DNA of 64,000 nt, from assembly GCA_958296405.1 (NCBI GenBank), contig OY282519.1, forward strand, positions 914,132 through 978,131. Direction: 5' to 3'. The notes below the pieces were generated by a model that made no database searches, was not told where the DNA came from, and worked only from the letters and a program-made list of their open reading frames with translations. Positions 16,977-54,836 of this stretch are shown here, in pieces. The stretch comes from an uncultured Pseudomonadales bacterium (GTDB lineage: Bacteria; Pseudomonadota; Gammaproteobacteria; Pseudomonadales; Azotimanducaceae). Position 1 is the first letter of the stretch, and every line of letters begins with the position of its first letter. Made by a program: the position numbers and the translations under genes.

Positions 16977-17190
16977 CAGTCTCCTGAGGCGCGCGCCAGT
17001 TGGTGTCGTCCTTGAGCCGTTAAGAAGTAAAAGGGGAGTCCGCTGTGGGCCCGGTGTGCAGGCCCGATGCCGGACGGCCATCGCCGCTTTGGGGTGGCTG
17101 CCGCGGGAAGCCTTGTGCGTCCATACGAATCCCCGCTCTGAGCCTAGACGGCTCAGGGCAAGCCCAACAGCGGCGTCATCGGGAGACGGC
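16977..17190 (+). ncRNA. ssrS: 6S RNA
   Basis: 6S RNA binds the sigma-70 RNA polymerase holoenzyme by imitating an open promoter and down-regulates transcription in stationary phase. The gene lies exactly between zapA and the 5-formyl-THF cyclo-ligase gene, its conserved location. The two ends pair (GTCTCC at 16979-16984 with GGAGAC at 17182-17187). The sequence follows the E. coli RNA: a CCTTGAGCCG segment in the 5' half, GGGAAGCCTTGTGCG in the middle, and the 3' hairpin CTGAGCC-TAGAC-GGCTCAG (17138-17156) followed by AGCGGCGTCAT. Exact ends are estimated. Confidence 0.87.
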
Positions 17191-31740: not shown

Positions 31741-32076
31741 CTAGAGGGCTTCGGCGAACTTCGCTTCGGTGCGCAGGTAGTTCTCGCGGCCGGGGTTCTG
31801 ATCCATGATGCGTTCCCAAGCGTCGCTGCCAAAAGCCTTGGCCATCCCCGCGTTCCGCGCCGCCATGGAATCCCAACGGATGATCCAGGTGACGGTGGCG
31901 GTGCCGAGCTCGTCCTGTGGCTTGCCGGCGACTTGCGGCGGCTCGTCCAGGTTCAGCCAGAAGCCCACGAGATCCATGTGGCTGCGGATGTATGGCAGCG
32001 CCACGTCCGTTGCCCAAACGCGGTACTCGGCGAGCCGCTCCGGCGCGTAATGGTAGTTGCGAATTTCATAGATCAT
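31741..32076 (-). CDS. NIPSNAP family protein
   Basis: 111 residues, a ferredoxin-like (dimeric alpha/beta barrel) small protein. MIYEIRNYHYAPERLAEY, GFWLNLDEP and TVTWIIRWDSMAARNAGM are characteristic. The function of bacterial NIPSNAP proteins is unknown; many are encoded with catabolic genes. It ends the three-gene minus-strand unit that begins with the putative selenoprotein, 55 nt after the serine hydrolase. Confidence 0.83.
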   Translation of the reverse strand: MIYEIRNYHYAPERLAEYRVWATDVALPYIRSHMDLVGFWLNLDEPPQVAGKPQDELGTATVTWIIRWDSMAARNAGMAKAFGSDAWERIMDQNPGRENYLRTEAKFAEAL

Positions 32077-32131
32077 CTCTCTGTCGCTTCTCCCAATTCC
32101 CCCAGTTGGCGGGAACAATGTTCGTGTGCGC

Positions 32132-33340
32132 TCACCCCGGGTTGTCGTCCAAGTGCTGCGCCAATGCTGCGAGGAACGCGCCCCGGCGTTCGCTGAACGG
32201 CTGCCCCACCGCCACCGGCCAAGCGCTGTGCGTGACCACCACCAAGCGGCGCGCCGGATCAATGTGGATGGATTGCCCGAAGATGCCCAAGGCGTTGAAG
32301 GCGCCGTCACCCTGCAGCCACCAAAGATAGCCATAGCCGGCGTAGCCCTTGGCCGGCGTCGTGGATGCCGCCATCCAGCCCGCCGGCAGCACCCGTTCGC
32401 CGCTCGCCAGCACCCCATCGGCCAGCGCGAACAGGCCGATGCGCGCGTAATCCCGCAAGGTTGCGCTGATGCAGCAGCCGCCGAGCTCGCCGCCATCTGC
32501 GCCATGGGTCATCCAGTTCGCCGGCGCCTGCATGCCGAACGGCCGCCAAACCTTTTGCGAGAGGTAGGTGGCCAGGTTGTTGCCGATCGCCGCCCGCAGC
32601 ACGGCGCCGACCAGGTTCGTCTCAGCCGTGTTGTAGTTGAACACTTCGCCGGCGACGCCCACGCGCTCCTTGGCGGCCAGCGACCGGTATAGGTCCACCA
32701 AGTTCGGCGGCATGGTGTTCACGTCGGAGGCGGGGTCCGCATAGTCTTCGTTCCAAGCAACGCCGGAGGACATCTGCAGCAGGTCGGCAATGGACACGTC
32801 GTCGTAGGCGGTGCCGGCGAGGCGCGGCAGGTAGCTCGTCACCTTCTCTTGTGCAGACTCGATGTAGCCATCTTGGATGGCCGCCCCGATCAACATGGCC
32901 ACCACGGATTTGGCGACGGAGAACGACACCCACAGGCTGTCTGCATCGTTGCCGGCGGCGTACCGCTCAAGCAGCACTTGGCCATCCTGCAGGGCGATGA
33001 GGCCCACCACATGGTTGTGTTCCATGAAGCCTTTAATGTCCAAGGGCTCGCCCTCCGCCTCAAAGCGGAGGTCGTCGATTGGCGTGGCGGCGGGCGGCAT
33101 GGGCGAAGCGGCGTCGCCGGCGGCGATGACGCGCGCCGGGAAAATCGCCGCGGTGTTGCGAAAGCCAGCCACCTTTTGCTCGGCGGTCCAAAACAGGAAC
33201 GATTCCGGGGCGCCGAAGTGGCGGGCGTCCTCGGCTGGATCAACATGGGGCGGGCCGCCGAATGTAGTGCCGGCGAGGGCGATGACGCCGAGCGCCGCGC
33301 ACAGCGTTGCAACGCGGCGCCGCAGGCGTGTCGGCGTCAT
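32132..33340 (-). CDS. Exported serine hydrolase, beta-lactamase/esterase (class C-like) family
   Basis: 402 residues with a signal peptide (hydrophobic 11-26). Catalytic S-x-x-K is S141-V-A-K144 in SFSVAKS; the tyrosine motif is in FNYNTAETN and the third motif region is VVVTHSA. Such proteins act as D-aminoacyl-, acyl- or carboxyl-ester hydrolases more often than as true beta-lactamases. The ATG at 33340 overlaps the stop of the upstream GrdB-like gene (ATGA), so the two are translationally coupled. Substrate unknown. Confidence 0.85.
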   Translation of the reverse strand: MTPTRLRRRVATLCAALGVIALAGTTFGGPPHVDPAEDARHFGAPESFLFWTAEQKVAGFRNTAAIFPARVIAAGDAASPMPPAATPIDDLRFEAEGEPLDIKGFMEHNHVVGLIALQDGQVLLERYAAGNDADSLWVSFSVAKSVVAMLIGAAIQDGYIESAQEKVTSYLPRLAGTAYDDVSIADLLQMSSGVAWNEDYADPASDVNTMPPNLVDLYRSLAAKERVGVAGEVFNYNTAETNLVGAVLRAAIGNNLATYLSQKVWRPFGMQAPANWMTHGADGGELGGCCISATLRDYARIGLFALADGVLASGERVLPAGWMAASTTPAKGYAGYGYLWWLQGDGAFNALGIFGQSIHIDPARRLVVVTHSAWPVAVGQPFSERRGAFLAALAQHLDDNPG

Positions 33341-34209
33341 CCAGCGCGCACCTTGCCGGCATCGCGCCGGGCTTGGCGTTCATTGCGCCGCGCCGCGCCC
33401 ATCGCCGCAAGCCGTTGCATGTTCTCCGGCAGCACCTCCATGTAGCGTTGCCGCCATGCGTGGCTGCCCCACTCGTAAGGCGTCTGTTGAAACGCGCCCG
33501 GCGCCGTGGCGGATTCGAGCATGTCGATGGCGGCGCCGACGATGGCGCGCTGCATCTCGGCGTCGTAGGGCTTCCCGCACGGATTGCCGAGCGGAAAGTC
33601 CGTGAAGACGTGGCGCGGCGCACCGGCGTGCGACACGATGTCCAAGGCCGAGCCCACGATCACCGTGGGGATGCCGGCGGATTCAAGCGCGCGGGCGACC
33701 AGACACACGGTCTGGTGGCAGACGGGTCACAACGGCACGAGGAGTGCCACGTCCACGCCGTCTGCTTGGCAGCGCTTGAGGATTTCCGGCGCATCCCCCT
33801 CGATGGTGCGGCGCTGGCTGTACTCCGTGGGCACGCAGTGAAAGCGCTCCGCCAAGCGGCCGATGCGCCCTGCCGCCGCCAGCTCCTGCAGCCGGTCTAT
33901 GGGGCAATAGGAGTTCAAGTCCTCCATGTGGGTGGCGCGCTTGTCCCACGCCAAGTCGTCGGCGTACAGGCGCGGCGGCGGCTCGGCGGTGGCGTTGGAC
34001 GCCACCGAACGCGGGTCTGACTCCACGCGGTCGTACAAGGCCGCGGTGGTGATCAGCCCCACCGTGGACTCCGCCAGCGGCCGCTTCAGCGCGGCGAATG
34101 GCACGTCATCGTGTTGCGCCCATTGATAGGACTTCTCGAACCCCTGCGCCTCGTAATAGCGGCGCGTGCGGTCCATGTAGCGTACGGGTTGGGTGTTTGC
34201 GTCGTTCAT
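33337..34209 (-). CDS. GrdB-family (glycine/sarcosine/betaine reductase B-like) protein, probable selenoprotein with in-frame UGA (U161)
   Basis: Read as one frame from ATG 34209 to the stop at 33337 this gives 290 residues, with a single internal TGA at 33729-33727. The protein matches the GrdB-like family of proteobacteria on both sides of the TGA: upstream LITTAALYDRVE and the acidic HMEDLNSYCPIDRLQELAA, downstream GIPTVIVGSALDIV and HVFTDFPLGNPCGKPYD. The TGA falls at VPL-U-PVCHQTVC, so U161 and C164 form a U-x-x-C redox motif; I recall Cys-containing relatives with CPVC here. A SECIS-like hairpin starts 11 nt after the TGA. Decoding UGA as selenocysteine is therefore likely. A recent nonsense mutation is the alternative. 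The reading frame on both sides shows no other damage. Reaction unknown; thiol/selenol reductase chemistry is inferred. Confidence 0.78.
33698..33716 (-). promoter_or_regulatory. Putative bacterial SECIS element
   Basis: On the coding strand, ACCAGAC and GTCTGGT pair perfectly (7 bp) around the 5-nt loop CGTGT. The loop begins 17 nt after the UGA and has G at its second position. Known bacterial SECIS elements lie just downstream of UGA, with a small apical loop 16-37 nt away and a G among the first two loop bases. The stem lies inside the conserved coding segment HQTVCLV, so some of the pairing could be chance, but the fit to all three criteria is good. Confidence 0.7.
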
Positions 34210-34322
34210 GGCGGCATCATCGCTTAGGTGGCGCGGTGCGCGCAACTGCCGCCCGCAGGAGCCCTCGATGGTGAGGCGAGAGCGACCTACCATTGGCACA
34301 CTCCACGCGCAGGCTTCATGTC

Positions 34323-34574
34323 ATGGCCATCACACTCACCGTCACCGCCAAGGGACAGATCACGCTCCGAAAGGATGTGCTCCAGCACCTCGGAGTGCGG
34401 CCCGGCGACAAGCTCAGCATCGATCTGCTCGCCGATCATCGCATTCAGCTGCGACGGAACCCGGGGAAACCGGTGTCGACGATTTTTGGGTTGCTGGCGC
34501 AGTCCAACACGGAGCGCCTGTCGATAGAGGAGATCGGGGAAGCCTCCGCCGCCGGCTGGGCGGGTGAAGAGTGA
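34323..34574 (+). CDS. AbrB/MazE/SpoVT-type antitoxin, apparently orphan
   Basis: 83 residues. The swapped-hairpin DNA-binding domain is clear: ITLTVTAKGQITLRKDVLQHLGVRPGDKL, about residues 3-31. The C-terminal tail (GLLAQSNTERLSIEEIGEAS) is the usual toxin-binding type. ATG start at 34323. A PIN or MazF toxin gene would be expected to overlap the stop; the 88 bp that follow contain no such start, and the next gene is on the other strand. It is divergent from the selenoprotein operon, so it could also act as a local regulator. Confidence 0.82.
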   Translation: MAITLTVTAKGQITLRKDVLQHLGVRPGDKLSIDLLADHRIQLRRNPGKPVSTIFGLLAQSNTERLSIEEIGEASAAGWAGEE

Positions 34575-54759: not shown

Positions 54760-54836
54760 TGGTGGGCGTGGCTGGACTCGAACCAGCGACTTCTGCCATG
54801 TGAAGACAGCGCTCTAACCAACTGAGCTACACGCCC
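54760..54836 (-). tRNA. tRNA-Val (anticodon CAC)
   Basis: On the minus strand, 5' GGGCGTG pairs with CACGCCC near the 3' end. The D arm GCTCAGTTGGTTAGAGC, the anticodon stem CTGTC/GGCAG with loop TTCACAT (anticodon CAC, decoding GTG), and the T arm with GTTCGAGTC are complete. A discriminator A and an encoded CCA follow. Length 77 nt including CCA. Lower-GC accessory genes lie immediately on the 5' side. Confidence 0.92.

Follow-up and report, generated by a model that had tools for sequence, protein, structure and literature searches.

A probable stand-alone selenoprotein gene of the PrdB/GrdB superfamily in an uncultured Azotimanducaceae bacterium

The locus and its reading frame

The window analysed here is a 64,000-nucleotide stretch of an uncultured Pseudomonadales bacterium (Azotimanducaceae; GCA_958296405.1, contig OY282519.1, positions 914,132 to 978,131), and its minus strand houses a gene of the PrdB/GrdB superfamily that is crossed by a TGA codon. 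Translation of the frame from 34209 to 33340, up to its stop codon, gives 290 codons with exactly one internal TGA, at codon 161 (Table 1). Reading this TGA as selenocysteine (Sec) yields VPL-U-PVCHQTVC, where U161 and C164 form a U-x-x-C motif. An earlier note, made from the letters of the window alone, had described the same TGA and motif and proposed a likely selenoprotein; translation reproduces the former, and the proposal is supported by the Sec machinery of the genome, exchange between Sec and cysteine (Cys) among homologues, a covarying hairpin and purifying selection downstream of the TGA, all obtained by computation. We therefore regard the gene as very probably a working selenoprotein gene in which TGA 161 is read as selenocysteine, encoding a stand-alone member of its superfamily.

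Table 1. Features of the selenoprotein locus, in window coordinates
Feature	Position	Strand	Basis or remark
PrdB/GrdB-superfamily selenoprotein gene, 290 residues	33337..34209	-	translation, NCBIfam, alignment; stop TGA 33339-33337
Single in-frame TGA at codon 161, taken as selenocysteine	33727..33729	-	translation and codon survey of homologues
U161-P-V-C164 redox motif	33718..33729	-	no variation at columns 161, 162 and 164 across a 30-row alignment, with Sec treated as Cys
Selenocysteine insertion sequence (SECIS) hairpin, 7-bp stem, 5-nt loop CGUGU	33698..33716	-	folding and covariation
Cys211 in GNPCG	33577..33579	-	alignment
Serine hydrolase, beta-lactamase-like PF00144, 402 residues	32132..33340	-	overlaps the selenoprotein gene stop by four bases (ATGA)
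NIPSNAP-domain gene	31741..32085	-	follows the serine hydrolase gene

Decoding of codon 161

The SECIS-like hairpin that the earlier note had placed within 33690-33730 lies just past the UGA, has G as the second base of its loop, and is set at a UGA-to-loop distance of 17 nt; a segment of 54 nt containing it has a minimum free energy (MFE) of -15.6 kcal/mol. The hairpin falls within all of the limits for bacterial SECIS elements given in Fig 2A of PMC13188914, namely a loop of 3-9 nt with G among its first two bases, a stem of 4-16 bp, a spacing of 16-37 nt and an MFE of at most -7.5. The stem also covaries among Sec copies. Across 25 Sec rows (21 distinct), 93.2% of cells are paired and the covariation score is 0.254, against 0.080 after shuffling (0/500), and with 50 Sec rows (43 distinct) the values are 91.0%, and 0.405 against 0.124 (0/500). 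Within these 50 rows double changes occur at five of the seven stem pairs, and shifting the partner by 1-3 columns lowers pairing to 18-33%. The outermost A-U pair is weak (25/43 rows). In the five Cys rows there is no excess pairing (60.0%, against 61.1% when shuffled). Of 5000 synonymous draws on the window gene alone, 177 form the complete stem, and Rfam has no SECIS match at the hairpin. One TGC copy (L024) retains six of the seven hairpin pairs, perhaps a vestige of the SECIS element of an ancestor with Sec.

The window's genome, a single contig of 3.83 Mb that is 98.31% complete, contains the four components for which the earlier note had advised a search: a tRNA-Sec (69.7 bits; called SeC with anticodon tca by ARAGORN), selB (376.4 bits), selA (514.5 bits) and selD (267.7 bits), with each of the three genes above its cut-off and selA adjoining selB. 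The selD product (L018:331-2520) has a pyridine-nucleotide oxidoreductase domain fused at its N-terminus, the Ndh-SelD type; a SelD-oxidoreductase fusion type is named in PMC2398784. Its match has no internal stop, so that SelD itself contains no Sec. Among the 28 family-bearing genomes selA was matched in 24. It is above cut-off in 23 of the 24 genomes with a Sec copy, the remaining one having a 34-bit fragment below cut-off, and has no match in any of the four genomes that yielded a Cys copy alone. One genome carries a Cys copy together with a Sec paralogue, the latter near selA. In two class genomes no more than about 4 kb separates a Sec paralogue from selA (L029/L052 and L027/L055).

Relatives were collected from a class draw of 369 genomes, eight of which hold the family, and from 20 loci in species genomes. 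Of 30 mapped copies, the window gene included, 25 have TGA at codon 161 and five have TGC; the 24 other TGA loci include one paralogue from the same genome and one near twin. When 390 genomes drawn from the order were scanned, 27 of them matched the family, at 41 places in all; a single TGA is present at 39 of these places, one of which also has a TAA, and the other two have none. At column 161 the 30 order loci examined have TGA in 28 and TGT in one, and one is too short; five of the 28 repeat genes already counted, leaving 23 TGA and one TGT as new distinct copies (n=24). The protein family is present in 16 of the 18 listed genomes of the bacterium's own taxonomic family, its own genome included. 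In every copy read, the codon at this column is TGA or a Cys codon, and it is at exactly this column that the C-P-V-C homologues and the Sec/Cys interchange described in the earlier note are seen. Sec predominates in a 61-row tree and occupies the outermost branches, with at least three Sec/Cys changes needed; under a midpoint root, placed for drawing only, Sec-to-Cys would be the simplest direction. For proline reductase, a 2006 table records no conversions between Sec and Cys (PMC1794560). The window's genome also encodes a second family member of 381 residues (C1:3115323-3116468, minus strand; L028) with an in-frame TGA in a U-P-L-C motif and a SECIS-like hairpin of its own, the letters of which differ from those of the window gene. 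The family gene in a bin labelled Chloroflexota matches that of a gammaproteobacterial bin with 98.7% identity over 600 bases and has similar neighbours (L044/L045), through either mis-binning or recent transfer.

The TGA could be explained in two other ways. A TGC codon for Cys is one base away from TGA and Cys homologues exist, so a decaying gene or a sequencing error might be suspected; the identical TGA recurs across many distinct genomes, however, and for 11 gene pairs the ratio of nonsynonymous to synonymous substitution (dN/dS, NG86) is 0.06-0.38 after the TGA and 0.08-0.31 before it. The ratio is higher after the TGA in nine of the 11 pairs; selection past the TGA is purifying. Together with the covarying SECIS and the co-occurrence of selA, this conservation and selection led us to reject a pseudogene or error, to which we attach almost no probability. 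Alternatively, the UGA could be an ordinary stop followed by a separately started gene, or could be read as another amino acid. An open reading frame with a GTG start does open just past the TGA, at 33708, but the Cys copies run as single open frames through column 161, Sec or Cys stands there in every copy read, and the genome has complete Sec machinery, which makes this explanation highly improbable. Decoding as selenocysteine is the reading that we retain.

Family assignment and the pyruvoyl partner

The best NCBIfam model is that of the D-proline reductase subunit PrdB (TIGR04483), at 109.8 bits (E-value 1.3e-31; 103.4 bits in the genome scan), which is below the cut-off of 300. The glycine reductase models TIGR01917 (33.4 bits, cut-off 602.2) and TIGR01918 (41 bits, cut-off 65.45) are likewise below theirs. 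Pfam GRDB (PF07355, gathering cut-off 22) scores 20.8 bits with the whole protein and 23.7 bits with the part before the TGA, and has no match with the part after it. The earlier note had placed the gene in the GrdB family with similarity on both sides of the TGA. Its superfamily holds, but the exact label is imprecise, as the PrdB model is nearer, though still short of its cut-off, and no pyruvoyl partner was found; the alignment of homologues does span the TGA, and the Pfam GRDB match lies only before it.

Three annotated PrdB proteins from Bacillota plasmid records have TGA at the same column and share a UxxCH motif, with prdA annotated beside prdB in two of the three records. PrdB of Clostridia and Lactobacillales is homologous over about 200 residues and has UGTCHR where the window protein has UPVCHQ; the window protein differs in being only about 30% identical and in having no PF09338 partner found, and the two also differ in that the N- and C-terminal parts are longer. 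GrdB resembles it weakly, PF07355 reaching to just before the Sec site and TIGR01918 spanning it, and differs in length, with 431 residues in the model, in its sub-cut-off whole-protein scores and in having a GrdE partner, none being found here. Closer are the alphaproteobacterial RefSeq proteins of Roseomonas and Haematobacter named glycine/sarcosine/betaine reductase selenoprotein B family protein (44-46% identity), which have Cys in place of Sec within CPVCHQ or CPICHQ. Cys211 is kept throughout the close Sec clade (20 rows) and absent from the Cys rows and the three PrdB; it is a possible additional redox Cys.

Is the window protein then a true D-proline reductase subunit, or a GrdB-type subunit, working with a pyruvoyl partner? 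PrdB does top NCBIfam, and the Sec column and the UxxCH motif are common to the annotated PrdB. Against this, the scores are far under the curated cut-offs, and the pyruvoyl subunit PF09338 (PrdA/GrdE) was found in none of the 28 family-bearing genomes, the window's own included, nor in two alphaproteobacterial plasmids with Cys copies, while the same model matched all three prdB plasmid records used as positive control. The neighbours scanned around family genes include no prd or grd gene. We reject this assignment on the cut-offs and the failure to find PF09338 in those 28 genomes, and consider it very unlikely.

Selenoproteins labelled PrdB have been catalogued since 2005, and the window gene adds a member to a known family. 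There are 42 Sec PrdB sequences reported from the Sargasso Sea (PMC1088965) and 235 Sec and 110 Cys sequences from the Global Ocean Sampling survey (PMC2398784), and proline reductase PrdB is among the commoner selenoprotein families in marine surveys (PMC1088965, PMC2398784, PMC9402790). The marine PrdB selenoproteins resemble the window protein in family label, UxxC motif and the occurrence of Sec and Cys forms, a comparison made by description rather than of subclade membership by sequence; a missing PrdA is not discussed in the sections of PMC1088965 and PMC2398784 that describe them.

Neighbourhood and predicted activity

The serine hydrolase gene starts inside the stop codon of the selenoprotein gene and is uninterrupted for 402 codons, as the earlier note had held in calling the coupled downstream genes intact. 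It lies directly downstream, together with a NIPSNAP gene, in the same five of the 20 species-genome loci. Acyl-CoA-ligase-like genes near the selenoprotein gene in the window and in four of the 20 loci give a weak hint of acyl-CoA work. Some relatives have extradiol-dioxygenase-like, luciferase-like monooxygenase or AurF-like neighbours, and a P450-like gene, which scores under the cut-offs of its models, lies near the 381-residue paralogue; bacteria bearing the family likely use oxygen. Elsewhere in the window are a 6S RNA (16978-17189, plus strand; Rfam RF00013, 67.8 bits), a tRNA-Val (cac) gene (54760-54836, minus strand) and, divergent from the selenoprotein gene, a small MazE-type antitoxin-like gene (34320-34574, plus strand; 21.5 bits, cut-off 24.7).

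The AlphaFold model (predicted local distance difference test, 91.7; predicted template modelling score, 0.91) has a strand at residues 154-158 and a helix at 162-177, with residue 161 at the turn between them, a position consistent with a helix-capped nucleophile; its matches in the Protein Data Bank are generic alpha/beta folds. It is proposed that SelB with Sec-tRNA decodes UGA 161, guided by the hairpin directly downstream, and that the 290-residue product carries its U-x-x-C at the start of the helix in an alpha/beta fold and acts without a PrdA/GrdE-type subunit. If Sec161 is the nucleophile, C164 closes a selenenylsulfide and cellular thiols recycle it, then a small substrate with an already activated bond could be reduced and no pyruvoyl Schiff base would be needed. 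The product is thus predicted to be, most likely, a thiol-recycled selenol reductase. The reaction of D-proline reductase is thought to pass through a pyruvoyl-proline adduct (PMC10298544), and since no PF09338 was found, the window protein should not reduce D-proline in that way. For a GrdB-like protein of Synergistota, an attack by Sec on the C-F bond of fluoroacetate is proposed in PMC10838667, with a second protein-B subunit present there too, so leaving groups of other kinds are considered within reach of the superfamily. For the window protein, reductive C-X bond cleavage is only a tentative prediction, to which we give well under half of the weight; the remainder goes mainly to thiol- or peroxide-type redox work.

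For annotation, ordinary gene callers take the TGA as a stop and would report this gene either split or shortened. For the family as a whole, we put forward as a possibility, and a somewhat doubtful one, that the proteobacterial "PrdB" is a separate pyruvoyl-independent selenol reductase rather than a D-proline reductase, cutting an activated carbon-heteroatom bond (for example in an alpha-substituted acyl compound) in apparently oxygen-using bacteria, and that an ancestral Sec repeatedly gave way to Cys, with the Sec machinery lost in Cys-only genomes. The names of its relatives imply anaerobic amino-acid reduction, yet the partner subunit for that reaction was not found in the 28 family-bearing genomes, and one of the commoner marine selenoprotein families may for this reason bear a misleading functional name.
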